Source: Natranaeroarchaeum sulfidigenes
Lineage (GTDB): Archaea > Halobacteriota > Halobacteria > Halobacteriales > Natronoarchaeaceae
Assembly (NCBI RefSeq): GCF_017094485.1
Contig: NZ_CP064786.1
Coordinates: forward strand, 1,550,001-1,614,000
DNA: 64,000 bases
Reading direction: 5' to 3'
The position numbers and the translations under genes were made by a program. Positions 1,795 to 41,344 of the stretch are shown in pieces. Positions within the stretch are counted from its first letter, which is position 1. Each line of letters begins with the position of its first letter. Below the pieces are notes generated by a model. It made no database searches. It was not told the origin of the DNA and was given only the letters and a program-made list of their open reading frames with translations.

Positions 1795-2292
1795 TCAAAG
1801 GGAATGGAAGGAGCGTGTGACTGGATCCTTCCGAGTAATGATTTCGTATGTTTGAACTTAGTGGTTTGGTGTCTTTGCAAAGACGGATTTAGTTACTTGT
1901 ATTGGATAGACAGGTAGGTGGAGCAACGCCCCGCACATTTCAGGACAAATCCAATGGATCGACCGTTCGATGGAAGTGAGAGTCGTGTGCAAGAGACTCA
2001 GGGGATCTGTTGAAATCATTCGTGATTGATACAAAATCCGTACTGAAGACAGGGCGCGAGTCTTCCACGGAGTTATTCTCGGATTTGATCAGACCGGATC
2101 GGCCAGTACAGGGAACACACATACTGCGACGAGTGACAACCTATCTGGAATCCATCAGAACCTCGGTGTAACATGCAGAGCGGTAATTTATCACACGCAG
2201 GTACACAAAGGAGTGCACACCACGCATTCCTACTGCATTGAGTGTCGCAGCTACCAACAACGTCTCTTATCCGTCTTTAGATCATATGGTTG

Positions 2293-2439
2293 ATGATGGT
2301 CAAACCTAATCCCACATCCACCCAGACAACGCTGTACGTATGCCAAGAGTGCGGAGACGGTGTCGAAGCGTCCGAGTACATGAGTCGGTGCCCCGACTGT
2401 GGCGGAGTCCTGCAAAACACCACTGTTCCCCACGACTAA
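2293..2439 (+). CDS. Rubrerythrin-like small zinc-ribbon protein
   Basis: 48 aa (ATG at 2293, or the adjacent ATG at 2296; stop at 2437-2439). It has CQEC and CPDC knuckles about 14 residues apart with a short acidic turn and GG, the layout of the rubrerythrin/rubredoxin-like one-iron or zinc ribbon found alone in many haloarchaeal proteins (often named rubrerythrin-like domain protein). No enzyme domain is attached. It lies just inside the left end of the cassette. Downstream, 2462-2539 could encode a further 25-aa peptide, but nothing beyond an open frame supports that. Confidence 0.7.
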   Translation: MMVKPNPTSTQTTLYVCQECGDGVEASEYMSRCPDCGGVLQNTTVPHD

Positions 2440-2683
2440 CGAGAGGTAGATTGGACACGGAATGAATGAGACCGCTCTGCTGCAGACAGCCTCTGAGTCG
2501 GTCACGTCATTCCTGACAGAAGCCGGGCAGTTCGAATAATCAGTGCTGAGCTCGCAGCGCGTATCTCGCGGAAGAGTGCTCCAAGAGGTGGCTCTTGAAA
2601 ACGTTCGCTACCACCAGAGCCGCGGATGATATTGTGAATTTATCACACGGAGCCTTGATGGCCCCTCAGTACCGATGTGAAGT

Positions 2684-3025
2684 ATGGAGCAGGGGGAACT
2701 AACGATCTATCGTAGTTGCATGCCAGTCGTTGATGCCCAGTACAGTCCCGAGAGTGGTCGATCTCCCGCGGAAGTCATCATTGATGCTCTGGCAGAAGCG
2801 GGCGGGGTTGACCCGCTCGAACTTCCGCCGCTGTATGAATTCGTTGACGGGGACGCCCTCAACAGTCTGTTCGAGGAGCACGACGGAGCAAACAATGGTG
2901 ATGCTCTCCTCAGTTTTCGAGTCGAGAACTGGAACGTGTTCATCCGTGCCGATGGCCGCATCCGAGTTTGTGATGGCACTCGACCCACCGACCCGGAACC
3001 AGTCTTCGAATCCACTCCGATCTAA
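2684..3025 (+). CDS. HalOD1 output domain protein
   Basis: 113 aa. Residues about 20-105 match the HalOD1 pattern: a helix SPAEVIIDALAEAGGVDPLE, LPPLYEFVDGDALNSLF, then strands LLSFRVENWNVFIRADGRIRV. HalOD1 is a haloarchaea-specific domain predicted as an output module of signalling systems; here it stands alone, as is common. A second, diverged HalOD1 gene lies 3 kb away inside the same cassette. It has no attached receiver or kinase, and the biochemical function of the domain is not known. Confidence 0.85.
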   Translation: MEQGELTIYRSCMPVVDAQYSPESGRSPAEVIIDALAEAGGVDPLELPPLYEFVDGDALNSLFEEHDGANNGDALLSFRVENWNVFIRADGRIRVCDGTRPTDPEPVFESTPI

Positions 3026-3212
3026 TTTTCAGACTGAGTGGTATGCGCAAAAACCGAATACTACATTGAGATGCGCTTGGAACCAGTAGAGCGATGGATT
3101 GCGTTCGCTAGGATTCTCTGATCTGGGGCATTCTTTGCTGACTATTCAATATATTCAGAAGACATACTAGTGAAAATAAGTCGTTCGAAGGGGAAGCCGG
3201 TTCGGTATTCTG

Positions 3213-3641
3213 TCACTCGTAGCCGTCGTATGACTTGACCAGCGTCAGGAGATCTTGTTCCAGTTCACCGCCAACAAACTGGACGAGTCCCGTCTCGGTC
3301 TCGTAGTCGATTATCCGGAGCTCCTCCAGTTTTGGGAGATGGGTATGGTGAAGGGCGATCCGGATGCGTTGGCGATGTTCATCGGATGCTCGCTCAGCGT
3401 TTTCGTCTCCAACCCTGTCTGCAACCCGGTCTACGAGTGCATCGTGTTCCAGTGTCTTATCCGATGCGGTAGTCAGAGAGTTGAGGATTGCCCGTCGATG
3501 TTCGTTCGCTACTGCCGACAGAAGCCTATCGGGGGAGATTGGTCTCTCCCGTTCCGTTGAGCTGAAAAGATCGTCGGTCTGTTGGAGATCACGTGCCCCC
3601 GGCTCTAGATTCTCATCCATACTTCCATAGCGGAGCGCCAA
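3213..3641 (-). CDS. DUF7344-like winged-helix regulator
   Basis: 142 aa, or about 135 if translation starts at the Met at 3620. The core SPDRLLSAVANEHRRAILNS ... IRIALHHTHLPKLEELRIIDYETETGLVQF is the pattern of the large haloarchaeal winged-helix family DUF7344, related to ArsR/HTH_20-type regulators. It lies 46 nt downstream of the Bat-like gene at 3688-4344 on the same strand. The gap holds a CCATGGTGTAC element resembling the operators upstream of the Bat-like genes, so it may have its own regulated promoter. Probable DNA-binding role; no ligand domain is visible. Confidence 0.8.
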   Translation of the reverse strand: MALRYGSMDENLEPGARDLQQTDDLFSSTERERPISPDRLLSAVANEHRRAILNSLTTASDKTLEHDALVDRVADRVGDENAERASDEHRQRIRIALHHTHLPKLEELRIIDYETETGLVQFVGGELEQDLLTLVKSYDGYE

Positions 3642-3656
3642 CTCCCTGGCTCTGTT

Positions 3657-3668
3657 CCATGGTGTACA
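3657..3668. promoter_or_regulatory. Putative operator half-site, CCATGGTGTACA
   Basis: Lies 16 nt upstream of the DUF7344-like gene (start 3641). On the minus strand it reads TGTACACCATGG, matching one arm and the centre of the dyads before the Bat-like genes at 4533 and 5327. Only one arm is clear here. Confidence 0.35.
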
Positions 3669-3687
3669 AAGGGATCAGCCGATTTGC

Positions 3688-4344
3688 TTATTCCTCGGGC
3701 TCGGGGGTAAGCAATGTATGCCTGACGAACGCACCGATGGCACGACGCAGCCGTTCGGTCACGGCTTGATCGGAAATCCCGAGTTCGTCCGCGAGCTCCT
3801 CGGTCGTGCAGCCTCGTGGAATGTCGTAGTATCCCATCCGAACAGCAAGCATGAGCGCTTCTCGTTGTGGCTCGCTCAGGCCGTACCACGGACCAGCGCC
3901 TGGATCCGTAGGATTGTACACCCGAATGAGTTCCAGGGATATGTGCGCATCCTCACAACAGGCTTGAGCCTGAGACAAGGCCTCACGGTGAGGGAATCGA
4001 ATCTCGAAATCCCATCCTTCTGACGTTCCAGTCGCGCTCAATATCTGCCCCTCGTGGTTCATGATGCATTGAAAGAGATGGTCCTGACTCGCATCCCAGT
4101 CCAGCCTGAACAACGTTCGATCTCCGAACACTTCCATCTCAGTTACGCGGTTGACAGTTGGATAGCGTTCGACAGCATCGAGAAACCCGTCTTCGACCGG
4201 TTCGTAGACCCAGAAGAGCGGGACGGTGGCATCACCACTCGGGACGAGCGTTTCGAGTTCGATAGCCGACGCCTCATCGAGACTGAGAATCTGCCCGAGT
4301 TCGAAGTCATCGGGCGGTATTCGGACTTCCGTAATCACACTCAT
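3688..4344 (-). CDS. Bat-like (bacterio-opsin activator type) HTH_10 regulator, copy 1
   Basis: 218 aa. An N-terminal alpha/beta sensor-like region (about 1-150) is followed by a C-terminal HTH_10 domain: LSEPQREALMLAVRMGYYDI, then TTEELADELGISDQAVTERL and RRAIGAFVRHTL. HTH_10 is the domain of Bat, activator of bacterio-opsin genes; most family members have unknown targets. It is the most diverged of three paralogues in this cassette (others at 4533 and 5327) and is transcribed divergently from them. A perfect 14-bp palindrome lies 48 nt upstream of its start. Regulation by itself or by its paralogues is inferred from that site. Confidence 0.85.
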   Translation of the reverse strand: MSVITEVRIPPDDFELGQILSLDEASAIELETLVPSGDATVPLFWVYEPVEDGFLDAVERYPTVNRVTEMEVFGDRTLFRLDWDASQDHLFQCIMNHEGQILSATGTSEGWDFEIRFPHREALSQAQACCEDAHISLELIRVYNPTDPGAGPWYGLSEPQREALMLAVRMGYYDIPRGCTTEELADELGISDQAVTERLRRAIGAFVRHTLLTPEPEE

Positions 4345-4391
4345 ACTCGCTTATGGGTCTAGGTTGCGCTGGGCCGTACAAAAGATGGAGG

Positions 4392-4405
4392 CATGGTGCA
4401 CCATG
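4392..4405. promoter_or_regulatory. 14-bp perfect palindrome CATGGTGCACCATG, putative operator
   Basis: Located in the divergent region between the Bat-like genes starting at 4344 (minus) and 4533 (plus). Shares TGGTNNACCA with the dyads at 4482-4501 and 5275-5287. The position upstream of a regulator suggests auto-regulation. Confidence 0.5.
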
Positions 4406-4481
4406 TCCGATGGTGTTCTACATATCTTCCCACTTGCACAATACACTATACCATCCATCTGCTGTATTTTTCATAGAGTTA

Positions 4482-4501
4482 GACCATGGTACACCATGGT
4501 C
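4482..4501. promoter_or_regulatory. 9-bp inverted repeat GACCATGGT-AC-ACCATGGTC, putative operator
   Basis: Perfect 9-bp arms with a 2-nt centre, 31 nt before the ATG at 4533, so at or near the expected core promoter of the second Bat-like gene. It is the strongest member of the dyad set. Confidence 0.55.
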
Positions 4502-4532
4502 AGTTATCCGTCCCCGACGTGAACGTTCTCGC

Positions 4533-5174
4533 ATGGCAACTGAGATGGAATTCACAGTCCCAGCCGAGGAGTTTCCGCTGGGAAGTATTTTCGAGAATTT
4601 ACCGGGAGTGACGGTCGAGTTGGAGCGGCTCATTCCACACGAGATGCTGACAATCCCGTACTACTGGGTGCGTGGCGCGGAAACCGAGAAGATCGAAACC
4701 GAATTCGACCCACACGCTGGCGTGACGGACATCCGACTGGTCGATAGGGTTGAACACGAGTATCTCATGCGCGCGGAGTGGGTGCGAGAATACGATGGGC
4801 TGTTGACTGCGCTGTCAGAGACGAACCTGACCGTTCTCTCGGGGGTCGGAACAGTTGACGGGTGGCGCTTCGAGGTACGAGGGGACACTCAAGAAGCAAT
4901 CGCTGAGTTTCGAACTCACTGCCAACAAAATGATGTTTCAATCGATATTTCGATGGTCCACGCTTTGCTCCCGATCCAGGGAGATAGCTTCGAGTTGACC
5001 GAAACCCAGCGAGAGGCTCTGGTATTGGCCTACGAGCGTGGCTACTTCGATACGCCACGGGAGTCATCACTCGAAGAAATCGCTGCTGAGTTCGGTATTA
5101 CCCAGCAGTCACTGTCTTCTCGACTCCGACGCGGTCATCGACGCCTCATCAGTGAGACTCTCATCACTTCGTAG
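4533..5174 (+). CDS. Bat-like HTH_10 regulator, copy 2
   Basis: 213 aa from ATG 4533. The frame is open upstream to 4353, but that extension covers the palindromic operators and has no relatives in the paralogues, so it is rejected. The N-terminal domain starts MATEMEFTVPAEEFPLGSIF and the C-terminal HTH_10 has ELTETQREALVLAYERGYFD followed by SSLEEIAAEFGITQQSLSSR. Very similar to copy 3 at 5327-5971 in both domains, indicating recent tandem duplication. DNA-binding transcription regulator; targets unknown. Operator dyads lie at 4392-4405 and 4482-4501 just upstream. Confidence 0.85.
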   Translation: MATEMEFTVPAEEFPLGSIFENLPGVTVELERLIPHEMLTIPYYWVRGAETEKIETEFDPHAGVTDIRLVDRVEHEYLMRAEWVREYDGLLTALSETNLTVLSGVGTVDGWRFEVRGDTQEAIAEFRTHCQQNDVSIDISMVHALLPIQGDSFELTETQREALVLAYERGYFDTPRESSLEEIAAEFGITQQSLSSRLRRGHRRLISETLITS

Positions 5175-5274
5175 AACTACGTGATTACCCATAGATTCAC
5201 CCAACCATTCCACTCGGGAATCAACGCCTAAGAGACGCCTCCGACAGTACAGATGCGACAATTCGCTTTCGGAT

Positions 5275-5287
5275 CCATGGTACACCA
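5275..5287. promoter_or_regulatory. Putative operator CCATGGTACACCA
   Basis: Contains the dyad TGGT-AC-ACCA at 5278-5287, about 40 nt upstream of the third Bat-like gene (ATG 5327). Shares 13 bases with the site at 4482-4501, in a segment (5175-5326) otherwise without features. Confidence 0.5.
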
Positions 5288-5326
5288 CCCCTTGCGACTA
5301 TTCATGTGCCAGACGAAGGATTCTGC

Positions 5327-5971
5327 ATGGCGACCGTAATGGAGTTTACGAGTCCGACAGCGGAGTTTCCACTGGGAACTGTGTTCGAGAACTTGCCGGG
5401 AGTGACGGTTGAACTGGAACGACTGATCCCACACGAGACGCTGATCATCCCGTACTTCTGGGTGCGTGGTGCAGAAACTGAGGACATCGAAGCCGCGTTC
5501 GAACCACACGCTGGCGTGACGGGCATTCGACTGGTCGATAGCGTCGAGGACGAGTATCTCATGCGTGCAGAGTGGGAGCAAGAATACTTCGGCGTCCTGA
5601 GTGCGCTGGCCAAGGCCAACGTCGTCGTGCTCACTGGGATCGGAACGAGAGACGAGTGGCGATTCGAGGTGCGCGGCGAAAGTCAGGAAGCAATCGCTGC
5701 GTTTCGAGAGTACTGCCAGGAAAACGACATCCCGATAGAGATCACCGCTGTCCACGCCATGCTTCCAATCCAAGGGGAGGGCTACGAGTTAACCGAAACC
5801 CAACGCGAGGCACTGGTATTGGCCTACGAGCGTGGCTACTTCGACACGCCCCGTGAGGCGTCGCTCGAAGAGATCGCAGACGATCTCGGCATTACCCAGC
5901 AATCGCTGTCCTCACGACTCCGCCGCGGGCATCGTCGCCTCATTGGAGCGACTCTCGTTAGTTCGTCATGA
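5327..5971 (+). CDS. Bat-like HTH_10 regulator, copy 3
   Basis: 214 aa from ATG 5327, aligned with the start of copy 2 (MATVMEFTSPTAEFPLGTVF). An upstream ATG at 5306 adds seven residues and is less likely. Domain order is as in copy 2: sensor-like N-terminal domain, then HTH_10 (ELTETQREALVLAYERGYFD; ASLEEIADDLGITQQSLSSR). The two copies keep long identical stretches in the HTH, so they probably recognise the same DNA, consistent with the shared dyad upstream of both. No phosphoacceptor or kinase domain is attached. Confidence 0.85.
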   Translation: MATVMEFTSPTAEFPLGTVFENLPGVTVELERLIPHETLIIPYFWVRGAETEDIEAAFEPHAGVTGIRLVDSVEDEYLMRAEWEQEYFGVLSALAKANVVVLTGIGTRDEWRFEVRGESQEAIAAFREYCQENDIPIEITAVHAMLPIQGEGYELTETQREALVLAYERGYFDTPREASLEEIADDLGITQQSLSSRLRRGHRRLIGATLVSSS

Positions 5972-6053
5972 TCCTTCTGGCGGTTCTTTATTTAAACCTC
6001 CTGTATAATCAGTAGGCTTGCTAAACCGATTCAGGCCGCTAGAACGGGTAGAT

Positions 6054-6404
6054 ATGAGCACGATGGTAGCCGGGGTTGGAGTAGAAGCGGTCGAGTATCA
6101 GCAGGAAACTGGTATTGTTCGTACCCAGTTTAATCAAGAGAAGACTCCCCCAAGCACGGCTGTTATCGCAACGCTGGCGGACGTGATGGACGCTGATCCG
6201 GTTGAACTTGACCCGCTGCGTTCTACTGTTGACCCAGAGGCGTTGAATGCGTTCGTCCGTGTTCGAAACGGGACGGAGGGGGATATCCACGTCACGTTCA
6301 CCCACGAGGACCACATGATAACCGTGTACAGCTACGGCGTTGTCACTGTCGCACCAGGGCACGAACCAGCAGCGGAAAATTCCGGGAGGAACGCGAGAAG
6401 ATGA
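6054..6404 (+). CDS. HalOD1 output domain protein, second copy
   Basis: 116 aa from ATG 6054; the frame extends upstream to 6018 but the added residues do not look coding. The HalOD1 pattern runs from PPSTAVIATLADVMDADPVE through LDPLRSTVDPEALNAFVRVR to the strands HVTFTHEDHMITVYSYGVVTV. It overlaps the next gene by four nucleotides (ATGA at 6401-6404), so the two are translationally coupled. The domain is found in haloarchaeal signalling proteins; its molecular role is unknown. Confidence 0.8.
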   Translation: MSTMVAGVGVEAVEYQQETGIVRTQFNQEKTPPSTAVIATLADVMDADPVELDPLRSTVDPEALNAFVRVRNGTEGDIHVTFTHEDHMITVYSYGVVTVAPGHEPAAENSGRNARR

Positions 6405-6586
6405 CGTCTGAGGAGACTCCGGTCACGTCGAAAGCGGAACTGAACGACGAGCTAAAAGCGCTCCTTCTCAGGGCCTATGAGAATGGAATCGATGTAGAAG
6501 GAGGATTCGAATGCCGGAACGGAGTCGAACATCCTGACTGGGACGTGATCGTCACCGAAGTCGAAAAGAACGACCATTCGGAGTGA
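6401..6586 (+). CDS. 61-aa acidic protein coupled to HalOD1 gene
   Basis: A short acidic protein (MTSEETPVTSKAELNDELKA...) with one predicted helix, ending in a WDVIVTEVEK-type strand. It starts within the last codon of the HalOD1 gene (ATGA overlap), the usual sign of a joint operon. Many haloarchaeal HalOD1 genes have a short acidic neighbour of this kind. The family is not identified and no catalytic residues are evident. Confidence 0.6.
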   Translation: MTSEETPVTSKAELNDELKALLLRAYENGIDVEGGFECRNGVEHPDWDVIVTEVEKNDHSE

Positions 6587-6628
6587 ACAACTGCGAGGAA
6601 GACCGGATCGGTAATAGGGTATCGAACC

Positions 6629-6951
6629 GTGGATGACAAGTGCCGTACCAGTGACCGAATCGAACACGTACTCTCAGCCCAACAGTGGCGAGTCTTATGT
6701 GTGTTACTGAGAGATGATTCCAGACCTGCAGATCCGATACTTTGTGGCGGAGAGATACTTGGACCCGAGGAGCACCTCACGGTCTGTTGCGAACTCCACA
6801 CGTACTGCTTCCCGAGTTATCGAATGAGGGGTTCGTCGAGTTCGACAGGTTTGAAGACATACGACGAGGAACGAAATTCGACGAGGTGCGTCGGTTTCTC
6901 GAACAGATCGATGACGATCATGACGAGTACCTGGACCTGTTCCGGTGCTGA
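6629..6951 (+). pseudogene. Frameshifted DUF7344-like winged-helix gene
   Basis: The first part, in the frame of the ATG at 6629, reads IEHVLSAQQWRVLCVLLRDD, like the first helices of DUF7344 proteins. After about 6790 the coding sense moves to another frame: HVLLPELSNEGFVEFDRFED ... TKFDEVRRFLEQIDDDHDEY, which parallels HTHLPKLEELRIIDYETETG in the intact gene at 3213-3641. The gene appears inactivated by a frameshift. It sits near the right end of the cassette. Confidence 0.45.
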
Positions 6952-7255
6952 AGGCGCTTGGCTCACACGACTACCTGAATATCTAGCAGAACTAGTAGAG
7001 CCCCCAGCGGTCGATACGCAAAGCCACTGATCGGTTGGTTCATTTGGATCTATGCGAAACCAACACCGACCGACTGCTGACTTCATCCTCTGTATCTCGC
7101 ACGGCGCGCGAAACGTGCCACCAATTGAGGGTTTCAACAGAGCGGTTCTTGATGATTTCAACAGAACCGACTCAGGCTAGTCAAGATCTCCGGCGGAGAC
7201 TTCTTTGGACGGCATTTTCATTATCACTCCCCACGTACTGTCTGACATATCTGTG

Positions 7256-12198: not shown

Positions 12199-12390
12199 AT
12201 AGGTAAAACAGTATATTTTACTGGTCGTTTAAAAGGGTAAGCCTTGGATGGGGCGACGTTGAAACCCAGCGTCTTCATGCGGGTCCGGAGCTCGGATTTC
12301 GGTTTTCGTGGAGTCGTTAGAAGAGAAAATAATCGGCCGATCCGAGACACACCGAAAGACACAGTAATCTGTGTACCCATAGGAATCTAT
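12199..12390. promoter_or_regulatory. Divergent promoter region
   Basis: 192 nt between the methyltransferase (minus) and the VapB-like gene (plus). On the minus strand TTTTAAA at 12228-12234 is about 30 nt from the methyltransferase ATG, a usual TATA position for leaderless archaeal transcripts. An AT-rich GTATATTTTAC segment lies at 12211-12221. No dyad is evident. Confidence 0.4.
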
Positions 12391-12621
12391 ATGCCTAGTA
12401 TCACCGTCAACGTGGACGACGACCTCAAAGAGCGCATGGAAAACCACCCGGAAATCAACTGGAGTGAGGTCACCCGGCAGGCTATCCAGGAGAAAGTCGA
12501 TACGCTGGAAGTGATGGACGAACTCACCAGCGAGAGCGACCTCACTGAGAGCGATGTGCAAGAAATCGCTCAAAAGATCAACGAAAGTGGGCGCAAGCAC
12601 GTTGACGAGGAATCGGTGTAG
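12391..12621 (+). CDS. vapB: VapB-like ribbon-helix-helix antitoxin
   Basis: 76 aa from ATG 12391; the longer open frame from 12244 runs through the promoter and is rejected. MPSITVNVDDDLKERMENHP begins with the RHH beta-strand, then a helix-turn-helix-like INWSEVTRQAIQEKV and an acidic C-terminal helix for toxin binding. Nine nucleotides separate it from the PIN toxin. It should neutralise the toxin and repress the operon by binding as a dimer. Classical VapB architecture in archaea. Confidence 0.85.
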   Translation: MPSITVNVDDDLKERMENHPEINWSEVTRQAIQEKVDTLEVMDELTSESDLTESDVQEIAQKINESGRKHVDEESV

Positions 12622-12630
12622 AGACGACGA

Positions 12631-13047
12631 ATGAAGCTGGTCATCGACGCCAATGTCGTCATCTCCGCGCTCATCGCTGATTCGAAAACACGGGAGCTCA
12701 TCGTTACGCTTGAACCTGACCTGCTGACTCCCGCGTTCGTCCACGACGAGATCGAAAACTACCAGGAACTGATCGTCGAGAAGTCCGGAATGGAACCAGA
12801 TCGAGTCTCACAGTTCATCGACCTTCTGTTCCAGTATATCGATGTTGTGCCTGCCAGCGAGTTCTATCCGGCTATCGAGAGCGCAGACGAAGCAATCGGC
12901 GATACCGACCCTGACGACGTACTGTACCTGGCGTGTGCGATCGGCTGTGATTCGGCCATCTGGAGTGACGATTCCGATTTCGACGAGCAGGGGCTGGTTG
13001 CGGTCTATTCAACGAGCGACGTACTCGACTCATTCGATACACGCTAG
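12631..13047 (+). CDS. vapC: VapC-like PIN-domain toxin ribonuclease
   Basis: 138 aa, the usual VapC length. PIN acidic residues are visible: D6 in MKLVIDANVVISALI, E in FVHDEIENY (about 45), D in DTDPDDVLYLACAI (about 93-97) and D in SAIWSDDSDFDE (about 112-116). These coordinate the metal for RNA cleavage. The gene follows the RHH antitoxin by nine nucleotides. Together the two form a complete type II toxin-antitoxin module next to the methyltransferase; its target RNA cannot be told from sequence. Confidence 0.85.
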   Translation: MKLVIDANVVISALIADSKTRELIVTLEPDLLTPAFVHDEIENYQELIVEKSGMEPDRVSQFIDLLFQYIDVVPASEFYPAIESADEAIGDTDPDDVLYLACAIGCDSAIWSDDSDFDEQGLVAVYSTSDVLDSFDTR

Positions 13048-13283
13048 CCCGGGACAGCAACCCCACGGATTCTCCGACTGTCTATGAAGACAATCGTCGA
13101 TCAATCAGTACAGGACTGAAGTCGGTCAATACAGGTGAGACAATGAACACTCACTACCCCAACTTGCCAGTTTAGATTTCTGCAAGCCTCCAATTGAGTG
13201 GGAGGAGTGTTGTTCCAAGTAGGGATCTACGCCTCATACCAAATAATCATTCTAACGCTACCTAAATGTGAAGGTGATGAACG

Positions 13284-27359: not shown

Positions 27360-27992
27360 GGCTCTGTTGAAATCCCGTTCATTAGATACTATTCTCGTTG
27401 AAAAGGCCGTCACATAGGACTGCGTATATTGAAAACTAAGAATAATAGTAGCAGATTGTGTAAGCAACTCGTATGGTCGATATCACTGACATGCCAAAAA
27501 AGAGACGGAAAATGATTCTATGGGTTGTCGGACTAGGGATAATCTTTTTTTGGACACTGGTTACGGTTATGTTCGAAGTAATCGGACTGGGACAATCAAC
27601 AGAAGTGTACTCGGCTGCTCCGCTGGTTCGATATATGTCGGCAGTCGGGGTGGTTGCAATCCACTACATTACTTGGGAAATAGCCAGGTCAGGAGATATC
27701 AAGGCACCAATTGACCCACGAACAGGACTGATCATATTGATTTGGATTATAGCTCTATTACATGCTGTATTTACAGCCATGGGTCCGGTTAGCGTTCCAC
27801 CTCACGAATTACCTACTTCACCCTACCAATTCATCGATTGGATTACTATTCCAGCGATCTTCTTTGCTGGAATGGTTTTAAATGAAAAAGAAAATCGGAG
27901 CTGATTCAGGTCACAAAGTTTGTTATCGATACTATGTGTACTGCTCGCTGGGTGGGCTCAAGCTATCACCTGCTGAGGAGTTCAACAGAACC
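27360..27992. mobile_element. 633-bp transposase-less insertion cassette with one membrane-protein gene
   Basis: Left inverted repeat GGCTCTGTTGAAATCC (27360-27375); right end read inwards GGTTCTGTTGAACTCC (27977-27992), 14 of 16 matching. Flanking 8-mers AAAGCTGT (27352-27359) and AAAGCTGG (27993-28000) match at seven of eight positions, a near-perfect target duplication. The only gene inside is the 143-aa membrane protein. The ends belong to the same family as the IS5-type element at 38574-41336, which presumably, or a relative, mobilised it in trans. Confidence 0.65.
27473..27904 (+). CDS. Membrane protein, cassette passenger
   Basis: 143 aa with four hydrophobic segments: ILWVVGLGIIFFWTLVTVMF (about 14-35), YMSAVGVVAIHYITW (about 55-70), TGLIILIWIIALLHAVFTAM (about 84-105) and WITIPAIFFAGMVL (about 123-137). 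A short basic N-terminus (MPKKRRKM) precedes the first. No transporter, channel or enzyme motif is recognised. It is the sole gene of the 633-bp cassette and its codon use is more AT-rich than the flanking genes. Start could be ATG 27473 or the Met at 27491. Confidence 0.65.
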   Translation: MVDITDMPKKRRKMILWVVGLGIIFFWTLVTVMFEVIGLGQSTEVYSAAPLVRYMSAVGVVAIHYITWEIARSGDIKAPIDPRTGLIILIWIIALLHAVFTAMGPVSVPPHELPTSPYQFIDWITIPAIFFAGMVLNEKENRS

Positions 27993-31122: not shown

Positions 31123-31165
31123 GGCTCTGTTGAAGTCCTTAGCAGGTGATAGACTGGGACTATCT
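31123..31165 (+). repeat. Solo end of the CTGTTGAA-type element
   Basis: GGCTCTGTTGAAGTCC at 31123-31138 followed by TTAGCAGGTGATAG. The subterminal part matches the right end of the cassette at 27360-27992 (TCAGCAGGTGATAG) in inverted orientation. No partner end with a matching 8-bp duplication was found. Confidence 0.6.
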
Positions 31166-37930: not shown

Positions 37931-38573
37931 CCTGACTGCCGACACGCTCGTCGACGCCACCACCGAAGAACTCGCTACGTATCTCCGAAGCGGTGCGATC
38001 AACACACGTGCGCTAACGGAGTCGATCGACTACGAAGGCCTCGACATCGACGACTGGGATCGAATCAAACGCATTCATTTCTGCCTGAACGCAGACGTTC
38101 ACGACTTCGTCAACAAACTCCCGGAACGTGTCCGCCGGGTCAAAACCGAAAATCAACGACAGCACGTCGACACGCGGGGAGAAATCCGCGGCTCGATCAA
38201 CTGGAGCGGGACGCTTCGCACCTGGTCGGACAGCGGCTACGCCGACCGGAGCCGCTTCGTCTGCGATACACCATATACTGAGTACGATATTGCGGAAAAC
38301 CGCGTGCTAAAACGCCTGCTCTGGCAGATCCACCGTACCGTCACAACGGATCTCCGCGGTGTCGAGTATGACTGGCGTCGCCAGTACTGGACCGACGACC
38401 AGATCGACCGGTTTTCCCGGCTCTACAAGCAAAACGTTCACCTGAACCGGATCGCTGCAGGGCAACACATCTCCGTGACCGACCAAGATCTCACGGCTGC
38501 ACGCCGCTCCCGCCTTGACCTGTACACGGAAGCCTACGAACTCCTCGACCGATACCAGCGATTACAATCAGAT
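37920..38573 (+). pseudogene. McrC-like nuclease gene, 5' part (interrupted by insertion)
   Basis: 218 codons: MTRSLTADTLVDATTEELAT ... INWSGTLRTWSDSGYADRSR, FVCDTPYTEYDIAENRVLKR, the DUF2357/McrC-like helical region. Coding ends at the 8-bp target duplication AATCAGAT (38566-38573), where the 2763-bp element begins. Removing the element and one copy of the duplication joins this frame directly to 41345-42043. It overlaps the McrB-like gene by 11 nt. Read as it stands, translation would run into the IS and stop at 38621. Confidence 0.75.
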
Positions 38574-38625
38574 GGCCCTGTTGAAATCCTTAGTGAGTTA
38601 CAGGTTCAGTCGGTAGTTTGAGTAG

Positions 38626-39447
38626 ATGCAGACTCTCCCAAAGTCTCGGTTGCTCCGATTTGTCGAGGAAGTACTTCAGTTAGCGAAACGTGCCGTAGCT
38701 CGATACTCCTCGAAGTTCTCGAAACAACGCTACACGCTCCATCAGCACATCGTTCTCCTCTGTCTCAAGGTTCGGAAGAACACGACCTATCGTACACTCC
38801 TCGACGAACTCATCGAAATGCCCCGTATCCGGAACGCGATCAATCTCACTGAACTGCCTGCTCCATCAACACTGTGCAAGGCGTTCGATAGACTCGATAT
38901 GGCTGTCTGGCGAGTGCTGCTCAATCTCTCTGTTTCACTGCTCCCGACCAACGGCGTTGCAGGGATTGATGCGTCGTGATTCGACCGCAGTCACGCCTCG
39001 AAACACTACACGAAACGAGCCAAACTCACGATTCAGCAACTAAAAGTAACACTGCTGGTCGATTCCAAAGTGAACGCAGTCCTTGATTTGCACGTGACGA
39101 CGACACGGAAACACGATAGCCAGATCGCTCCGTCGCTGATCAAACGCAACGCCGAGACTATCGACATTCTGCTCGGGGACAAAGGCTACGACGACCAGAA
39201 AATCAGACGACTTGCCCGTCAACACGAGATTCGTCCACTAATCAAGCATCGTGAATTCACACCGCTTCACAAGGCATGGAATGCACGCTTAGACGCCGAC
39301 CTCTACGGCCAACGGAGTCAATCAGAGACAATCAACTCAACACTCAAGCGAAAGTACGGTGCATTCGTTCGCTCACGCCGCTGGTGGAAACAGTTCCGTG
39401 AACTCGCTCTTGCGTGTATCGTCCACAATCTTGACCAAGCAATCTAA
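38626..39447 (+). pseudogene. IS5-family transposase with a premature TGA
   Basis: 274 codons with the DDE residues in place: first Asp in AGIDAS (about 116), second in LLGDKGYDD (about 185), Glu in QRSQSETINSTLKRKYG (about 232). The only defect is TGA at 38977-38979, where the family usually has Gly (GIDASGFDRSHASKHY); one base change from GGA explains it. Everything downstream is in the same frame and intact, so the mutation is recent. The transposase is presumably inactive in cis. Confidence 0.8.
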
Positions 39448-39600
39448 CGACCAGTACAGGTGATGGCATTACCGAAGTAGGTACGCGCCTCTCGAAAAGG
39501 GGTCAGAAACCATCTCCTGAATACAGAAATCAAACTAGTCGGAAAAAAAAGCTGGAATACCAAACTGTATTATACTTTTAAAACAACAATAAGCTGCATT

Positions 39601-41247
39601 ATGTATCATGGTTTCGGATTAGCTCATATTAGCCATCTTGTATTATTTGGGCTAACGGCGCTGGCCTGTTTCGGTATGGTCGTTCGTGTCCGAACACAGA
39701 TCGATGATCCGGACGTGCAATGGGGTTTAGCGAGCCTCTTGGCTCTGTGCGGGTTCTGGTCGGCATTTAGCCTCGGTCGTCTCAGCGTACCACTTCCCGA
39801 ACTCAAACTCACATTTTATATGCTCGGATTGATCGTCGGGTTGTCCACCGTCGGTGCGTGGCTGTATTTTTGTTCAGCATTTACTGGTCGTACGTACCAC
39901 CAAGAATCGATATATCGCTGGACTGCGTTCAGTCTATTCCTGATAATCGTTGCGGTGAAGGTCACTTCTCCGATTCACGGACTCTACTTCACAACGAGTA
40001 GTCCCACTTCCACGGAACTCGTGATTGAACTTGGGACTGTCCATTGGGTCGTCGCTGGGTTCGCATATGCCCTCTCAGCGATTGGGTTTTACATGTTGTT
40101 TGATTTGTTCAAAGAGTCTAACTACGTGACCACGAAATTGAGCGTGCTAGTCGGACTCGCCGGGGTATCTGGTGTGTTCACCGTGTATGCCTATCTGAAC
40201 CCGACCATCTCCACAGTGAGTTACGAGCCCGTCGGCGTGGCTCTGTTTGCACTTGGGGTACTCAACTTCGCAGATGGGACGTTTCTCGCAGTCCAGCGAT
40301 TCGGTCGTGAACAACTGATTGACGAACTCAACGAGGCGATTATTATTCTCGACAGTGATGGGATCATCCAAGACGTAAACGATCCCGCCCGGCGATTGTT
40401 CCCTTCGCTGTCGGATGCAATTGGAAAGTCCGTAGCGACGGAAGTACCCGAACTCACAGAGTATCTCTCTGTCGAATCACCTCAGGTAATCACGGTCAGT
40501 AGATCCAACGTAGAGAAACACTATCTGTTATCAACACAGACACTAACCGCCGGTGAGACAATAATCGGGCGGACAGTCGTGTGCACCGACATTACCGAAC
40601 TCGAACGGCAGCGCGGCGAGATTAAACGCCATAGGAACCAACGAAATGAGTTCGCAGAAGCGATTACACACGAACTGCGGAACGCAATCAACGTCACCAA
40701 TGGCCACCTCGAATTAGTACAGACGCATCTCAACTCGGAGGAAGACAGTCAGACTGCTAACAGCCTCAATATAGCCGTGTCTATGACGGATCGGATGGAA
40801 CAAATCGTGTGCAATCTGGCGATGATCGCGGAGTACGGCCAGCCGGTTGAGGAGACGTTATCGGTCGATCTCGGAACCATTGCTCAGGAAGGCTGGGAGA
40901 TGACCTCGTCGTCGAACGAATTCCTACAGGTGCCAACCAGCGAGATGGTTGAGGCGGATCCGACTCGTCTCAAAAAGCTCTTCGAGACGCTGTTTACTTT
41001 TTGCCTCAGCAACGGGGCGACTGAGGTTAAAATTGAAGTCATGGACGGAACCATTGTCGTCACTGATAATGGAAAACCACTAACAGAGACGGACGCTGAA
41101 AGAGCATTCGCATACGGGGAGGCCGTTCCCGACGCCAAATCAGGAATGCAGCTTCCGGTCGTACGAACGCTTGCTGACGCGCACGGATGGAACGTAACGA
41201 TTGAGACGGCTTATCAAGGGGGAGTTCGTATTCGGATCGTGACATAA
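39601..41247 (+). CDS. Sensor histidine kinase with 7TM N-terminus (IS passenger)
   Basis: 548 aa. Seven hydrophobic segments in residues about 1-220 (histidine-kinase 7TM sensor type), a PAS domain at about 230-340 (LNEAIIILDSDGIIQDVNDP), a HisKA phosphoacceptor EAITHELRNAINVTNGHLEL, then an ATPase region with VVTDNGKPL (G1) and SGMQLPVVRTLADAHGW (G2). The N box is atypical: LFTFCLSNGATE where haloarchaeal kinases have LFRNAVEHG, so the usual Mg-binding Asn is missing and ATP use is doubtful. A TATA-like TATACTTTTA at 39571-39580 suggests a leaderless transcript from inside the element. No response regulator is adjacent; HalOD1 or Bat-like proteins might be outputs, but nothing shows it. Confidence 0.85.
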   Translation: MYHGFGLAHISHLVLFGLTALACFGMVVRVRTQIDDPDVQWGLASLLALCGFWSAFSLGRLSVPLPELKLTFYMLGLIVGLSTVGAWLYFCSAFTGRTYHQESIYRWTAFSLFLIIVAVKVTSPIHGLYFTTSSPTSTELVIELGTVHWVVAGFAYALSAIGFYMLFDLFKESNYVTTKLSVLVGLAGVSGVFTVYAYLNPTISTVSYEPVGVALFALGVLNFADGTFLAVQRFGREQLIDELNEAIIILDSDGIIQDVNDPARRLFPSLSDAIGKSVATEVPELTEYLSVESPQVITVSRSNVEKHYLLSTQTLTAGETIIGRTVVCTDITELERQRGEIKRHRNQRNEFAEAITHELRNAINVTNGHLELVQTHLNSEEDSQTANSLNIAVSMTDRMEQIVCNLAMIAEYGQPVEETLSVDLGTIAQEGWEMTSSSNEFLQVPTSEMVEADPTRLKKLFETLFTFCLSNGATEVKIEVMDGTIVVTDNGKPLTETDAERAFAYGEAVPDAKSGMQLPVVRTLADAHGWNVTIETAYQGGVRIRIVT

Positions 41248-41344
41248 CGATCTATTCCTGTACGGTCAACACGCACGTGTAGTATGCAGTAGATTCACGT
41301 GAACAATTCTCTAAAGAAGAGGATTTCAACAGAGCCAATCAGAT

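Follow-up and report, generated by a model that had tools for sequence, protein, structure and literature searches.

Probable role of an IS5-type insertion sequence in the transfer of a regulatory circuit between haloarchaeal species

Mobile insertion cassettes (MICs) have been reported in Bacillus cereus and for qnr genes (PMC6542083, PMC5444012, PMC3913671). In haloarchaea, a passenger gene beside a transposase has been noted in Halorubrum lacusprofundi (PMC10544981), and the miniature inverted-repeat transposable elements (MITEs) of Haloquadratum walsbyi, which are short and, save one, non-coding, are believed to be moved in trans, by transposases of elements whose ends match theirs (PMC3119063). 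Haloarchaeal genomes also carry from one to 49 stand-alone genes for HalOD1, a signalling domain of haloarchaea with no established activity (PMC5847659). Here, we describe a 5166-bp block in Natranaeroarchaeum sulfidigenes (contig NZ_CP064786.1), located at 2003–7168 of a 64,000-nucleotide stretch (positions 1,550,001 to 1,614,000 of the forward strand) that is called the window throughout. With considerable confidence, we read this block as a MIC: a non-autonomous relative of the ISHla2-like IS5 insertion sequences (IS) that has a horizontally transferred regulatory module as its cargo and would need a transposase supplied in trans. Transfer of an entire regulatory circuit from one species to another seems to have been aided by a common IS5-type IS.

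Ends, target duplication and transposase family

An earlier note, made from the DNA letters alone, had described a block bounded by inverted IS-type ends and a perfect 8-bp target duplication with no transposase inside, and all of this is borne out. The two 17-bp ends are complementary at 16 of 17 positions and GACTCAGG stands on both sides, so that the whole, duplications included, spans 1995–7176 (Table 1). Within 2003–7168, Pfam recognises no transposase gene, and tblastn finds no remnant of the cognate transposase. Could the inverted ends and the duplication simply be unrelated matches? The only point that speaks for this is that the GACTCAGG 8-mer is common by itself (3 in the window, 2.8 expected). 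The joint structure is not: a scan for an exact 8-bp duplication next to 16-bp inverted ends (at most 2 mismatches, span up to 10 kb) returned just two places in the window, the cassette and 38566–41344, against 1 match in total in 100 Markov-resampled windows (about 0.01 per window). The end motif GGNTCTGTTGAAATCA alone occurs 8 times in the window at up to 2 mismatches, where 0.19 are expected. Since the same tips and duplications also recur across many genomes, coincidence has a negligible probability.

Of 293 genomes of the order, 186 contain the tip motif; a reversed control pattern was found in none of the genomes listed. In the fetched loci, to which all element numbers given here refer, 74 tip pairs were tested; the order-wide pairs were picked by their tips and not by cargo, and the set is not a random sample. 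A perfect 8-bp duplication flanks 39 of these pairs and a 7/8 duplication 4 more, compared to 0.06% at 7/8 or better in slid controls. A census of same-tip elements yielded 45, ranging from 178 bp without genes up to 5.2 kb. Some hold a transposase alone, others a transposase together with RibD_C, with BAT and DUF7344, or with HalOD1 and DUF7344; passenger-only elements carry an alpha/beta hydrolase, a bile-acid-symporter-family protein, a BrkB-family protein or a luciferase-like monooxygenase. At one further locus (L099, G089:C4:116645-122005), two such ends lie 5.4 kb apart without a target duplication and enclose an ABC-transporter operon, a TetR-like gene and a truncated transposase.

Which IS do these ends belong to? 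In genomes of the family, elements with cassette-type tips and 8-bp duplications encode a 273-aa transposase of the IS5 family (NCBIfam NF033579, 222 bits against a cut-off of 140), and a relative on a plasmid is annotated as 'IS5-like element ISHla2'. Judged by these relatives, the ends are of the IS5-family (ISHla2-like, NF033579) type, a group common in haloarchaea, in agreement with the IS5-type origin proposed earlier. A different family, IS6, has a superficial claim, as the GG-CTGTTG tips resemble IS6 ends described in PMC7986276 and IS6 likewise makes 8-bp duplications; the block would then be the product of IS6 cointegrate formation. However, both genes for IS6-type transposases in this genome have GTGTTCAGATA-type sequences at their borders instead of the cassette tips, and elements with exactly the cassette tips carry the IS5-family transposase, which refutes the IS6 reading and leaves it very improbable. 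An IS1595/ISH4 origin was likewise rejected: this transposase is present as a single copy in the genome, and no matching end motif appeared in the scan. Of the hallmarks of an ISHla2-like IS5 element, the cassette thus has the cognate ends and the 8-bp duplication and lacks a transposase of its own; it is therefore a non-autonomous derivative, not an IS. We infer that the block was inserted at GACTCAGG, with duplication of the 8 bp, by an ISHla2-like transposase that had recognised its tips.

The transposase had been placed elsewhere by the earlier note. The closest cognate copy does lie 31 kb downstream in the window, but it has one stop codon. It belongs to a second element of the same kind, where the gene (38626–39447) aligns over its full length at 95% identity with a single TGA stop, and where the cargo is a 548-aa 7TM-PAS-HisKA-HATPase histidine kinase (39601–41247). 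Apart from this close copy, the genome holds two partial, sub-threshold matches of the NF033579 type; an intact transposase of this type was not found in the genome, other IS5 subgroups not having been searched. Because no intact copy was found, present-day movement of the cassette is improbable; it would take a transposase gained by transfer, or a different IS5-type transposase that accepts its ends. A third element, of 633 bp, has no transposase and only one 143-aa open reading frame without a Pfam match. Exact tips are confined in this genome to 1.466–1.592 Mb of the 3.04-Mb contig. In the window, orphan ends at 31123 (+) and 32983 (+) resemble the right ends of the 633-bp and kinase elements, and the region contains remnants of further elements.

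An autonomous sibling and the spread of the module

The claim that the regulator genes moved as one unit gains most from an element in another genus. Halomicrococcus gelatinilyticus (CP100465.1) carries a 4319-bp element (L101 301–4619, identical to L125 7585–11903) with same-type ends, GTCGAACC on both sides (8/8) and an intact 273-aa transposase with zero stops, and it holds the module: DUF7344, two Bat regulators (BAT/HTH_10 in both), HalOD1 and a second DUF7344-like gene. The kinase element of the window is 92.7% identical to it over the first 887 bp and 90.8% over the last 65 bp; the middles differ. In Halorubrum sp. 48-1-W, the same arrangement recurs, but part of the transposase has been deleted from within and the right tip is gone. 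A 4.2-kb stretch on a plasmid of Halomontanus rarus matches the Halomicrococcus element at 96% identity; its transposase has one stop, its right end differs and there is no duplication. The Halorubrum and Halomontanus forms show graded decay. The same head and tip also surround other cargo on plasmids of Natrialba, Natrinema and Natronococcus, with a duplication in one of the five checked.

Beyond these elements, the module, defined here as DUF7344, two divergent Bat/HTH_10 regulators and HalOD1, is widespread. A search with one Bat protein returned 37 haloarchaeal loci, of which 35 (L118–L152) have the module or part of it, and several of the copies in the collection lie on haloarchaeal plasmids. 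The flanks are unrelated in nearly all, with two clear exceptions: a duplicated copy in one genome and a pair of Natronorubrum species. Conserved linkage across unrelated flanks had been set out beforehand as an argument against recent insertion. This linkage is seen, and it shows a module that travels; that the insertion is recent, however, is not confirmed. Closest is the copy of Natronolimnohabitans sp. A-GB9, 91–96% identical over 4.4 kb; a copy on a Natronosalvus plasmid, in which the tandem Bat genes are also present, is 91–97% identical. With the core at 91–96% and rpoB at 83.5% between N. sulfidigenes and Natronolimnohabitans sp. A-GB9, the comparison indicates that the module is horizontally transferred. 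A stretch that adjoins the module in Natronolimnohabitans sp. A-GB9 (L118 5213–5919) is 82% identical to window 12346–13052, but there it lies 5 kb from the cassette.

Several observations weigh against transposition between these ends. Most module loci are without IS5-type ends. In the nearest copies (L118, L205), the block shared with the cassette stops 475–490 bp inside the left end and about 150–250 bp inside the right end. An empty site, with the flanks joined through a single GACTCAGG, had been suggested as a check, and none was found in 9 genomes of the family; in the sister species, likeness to the left flank already ends about 125 bp before the insertion point. Finally, in its terminal regions the cassette is like a 771-bp element from the sister species and not like the Halomicrococcus element. 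As the terminal regions differ, the cassette is a sibling of the Halomicrococcus element and not its simple deletion.

One could go further and hold that the module moves independently of the ends, by plasmid exchange or homologous recombination, and that the IS-type ends are incidental here. The tip-less majority and the plasmid copies favour this. IS5-type tips are absent from the Natronolimnohabitans sp. A-GB9 and Natronosalvus plasmid copies. When terminal repeats of other kinds were sought de novo around tip-less module copies, matches stayed at about chance level, and a relaxed end search at module loci gave the same outcome. Yet both here and in Halomicrococcus the module sits between the ends, with perfect 8-bp duplications outside them, so that these copies were most likely inserted by transposition, and incidental ends are improbable. 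What the tip-less loci do imply is that the module spreads by further routes too: as they predominate, the ends account for this copy and a few others, not for all. The IS vehicle with duplications is seen in this genome and in Halomicrococcus, and its decayed forms in Halorubrum and Halomontanus.

How the cassette was put together is a separate question, and a variant of transposition by IS5-type ends differs only on this point. According to it, two short, inverted, IS5-tipped MITE copies flanked a resident module and their outer tips moved the block as a compound transposon. Both ends indeed carry pieces of a dispersed block of the genus (A on one side, B-C on the other) that adjoins an IS5-type tip in L036 and L062 of the sister species, both match the 771-bp element, and the module occurs without these ends in L118 and L205. 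The two ends nevertheless hold different parts of the A-B-C block, no inner tips with duplications were found, and another genus has the module within one autonomous element; we consider this assembly possible but unlikely. Copies of the dispersed A-B-C repeat were seen in L036, L058, L059, L061, L062 and L065, some of them adjoining an IS5-type tip.

Cargo and a candidate operator

By Pfam, the cassette encodes two HalOD1 proteins, one DUF7344 protein and three BAT/HTH_10 regulators, which matches the gene content given in the earlier note (HalOD1, DUF7344, three Bat-like regulators). BatB1 and BatB2 arose by tandem duplication (4531–4830 and 5325–5624 are 78% identical), and full-length matches of BatB2 in other haloarchaea have about 71–97% amino acid identity. 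A frameshift interrupts the second DUF7344-like gene in the cassette; its counterparts in L118 and the Halomicrococcus element are open. No match was found in the phage collection searched, and PHROGs gave nothing useful for the cargo. Elsewhere in the genome, a HalOD1 gene (L067 12185–12521) lies about 20 bp from an IS5-type end at genome position 1472198. The window also contains a 19-nt inverted repeat (95%; 106–124 and 1159–1177) around two overlapping open reading frames (230–538 and 535–1149).

Table 1. Coordinates of the cassette, its genes and predicted sites, and of two further elements in the window
Feature	Position	Strand	Basis or remark
Left 8-bp target duplication, GACTCAGG	1995..2002	none	Sequence
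Left terminal inverted repeat, GGATCTGTTGAAATCAT, IS5/ISHla2-like	2003..2019	+	Matches tips of transposase-bearing elements
Subterminal block B-C, left side	2051..2180	none	Part of dispersed, genus-specific terminal repeat
HalOD1 protein, 113 aa	2684..3025	+	PF18545 E=6.9e-20; in extended module common to L118 and L205
DUF7344 protein, start codon uncertain	3213..3641	-	PF24035 E=5.2e-17
Candidate operator copy 1, CCATGGTGTACAAAGG	3657..3672		Upstream of DUF7344
BatA, BAT + HTH_10 regulator, 218 aa	3688..4344	-	PF04967 E=4.3e-18, PF15915 E=4.8e-11
Candidate operator copy 2, GCATGGTGCACCATGT	4391..4406		Upstream of BatA
Candidate operator copy 3, CCATGGTACACCATGG, exact consensus match	4484..4499		Upstream of BatB1
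BatB1, BAT + HTH_10 regulator, tandem copy 1	~4533..5174	+	PF04967 E=8.2e-18
Candidate operator copy 4, CCATGGTACACCACCC	5275..5290		Upstream of BatB2
BatB2, BAT + HTH_10 regulator, tandem copy 2	~5327..5971	+	Pfam
HalOD1 protein, 116 aa	6054..6404	+	PF18545 E=1.3e-22
Small open reading frame, ~60 aa	6402..6587	+	Hypothetical protein in relatives' annotation
Second DUF7344-like gene of module	6629..6962	+	Frameshifted pseudogene
Subterminal block A, right side	7006..7095	none	Part of dispersed terminal repeat
Right terminal inverted repeat, top strand ATGATTTCAACAGAACC, inward reading GGTTCTGTTGAAATCAT	7152..7168	-	
Right 8-bp target duplication, GACTCAGG	7169..7176	none	Sequence
Third element, 633 bp, duplication AAAGCTGT/AAAGCTGG (7/8)	27360..27992	+	
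Second element of same kind, duplication AATCAGAT	38574..41336	+	Terminal repeat/duplication scan, Pfam

What makes the cargo more than a collection of regulators is a palindromic candidate operator, CCATGGTRYACCATGG. At up to 3 mismatches the window has four copies, against 0.46 expected, and every one falls within the cassette, about 15–60 bp upstream of the predicted starts of DUF7344, BatA, BatB1 and BatB2. At up to 4 mismatches, at least one site is present in 34 of 36 module loci, mostly at three fixed positions, and the density in module loci is 17-fold that of the flanks, an enrichment for which conservation of the surrounding DNA accounts in part. Recurrence at several promoters of one locus does not follow from such conservation. 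A resident locus at 530 kb of this genome (L066, G000:C1:527500-534500) has the same four-gene layout of HalOD1, Bat, Bat and DUF7344, and its Bat genes are 67–73% identical to the module in DNA; it shows no operator match at up to 3 mismatches and only one weaker site. As far as sequence can tell, the operator is most likely a binding site for the HTH_10 proteins that the module itself encodes. With a palindromic candidate operator ahead of every transcription unit, the module looks like a self-contained regulatory circuit. The units DUF7344, BatA, BatB1 and BatB2 would stand under one predicted operator type, and HalOD1 and DUF7344 may serve as partner output or adaptor proteins. The cargo would thereby bring regulators together with their own operator sites, and the circuit's regulation could be kept in any host.

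Comparison with known mobile elements

Haloarchaea have many HalOD1 and Bat-like genes, and the present case offers one concrete vehicle, an IS that takes such genes between genera with or without its transposase; a regulator module that arrives with its operator sites could function in a new host from the start. As only two of the 14 HalOD1 genes of this genome lie inside such an element, this is one route and not the whole explanation. A more general reading, to which we give somewhat less than even weight, is that ISHla2-like elements are a general haloarchaeal gene shuttle, with or without a transposase, and a substantial route for self-regulated signal-output modules. A fixed head of about 0.9 kb (tip and transposase) and a fixed right tip of about 70 bp would be kept while the middle is exchanged, and HalOD1, DUF7344, Bat and histidine kinase modules would in this way spread and multiply across haloarchaeal genera.

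Finally, we would like to set the cassette beside the systems described so far. It shares its tips and 8-bp duplications with the ISHla2-like IS5 sequences, and the family match of the NF033579 transposase marks these as its relatives, but in the cassette 5.2 kb of mainly regulator genes stand in place of the transposase. The layout of a 'transporter IS', an IS with passenger genes, is that of the Halomicrococcus sibling and of the kinase element in the window, of which the cassette is the transposase-less form. With the Haloquadratum MITEs it has the idea of mobilisation in trans in common; at 5166 bp and with at least six genes, it is neither short nor non-coding. The closest likeness is to the MICs, since the cassette combines IS ends and a target duplication with passenger genes and no transposase inside. 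Unlike those reported in Bacillus cereus and for qnr genes, however, it is archaeal, has IS5-type ends, carries a multi-gene regulatory circuit with its own predicted operators, and has an autonomous sibling with the same cargo.

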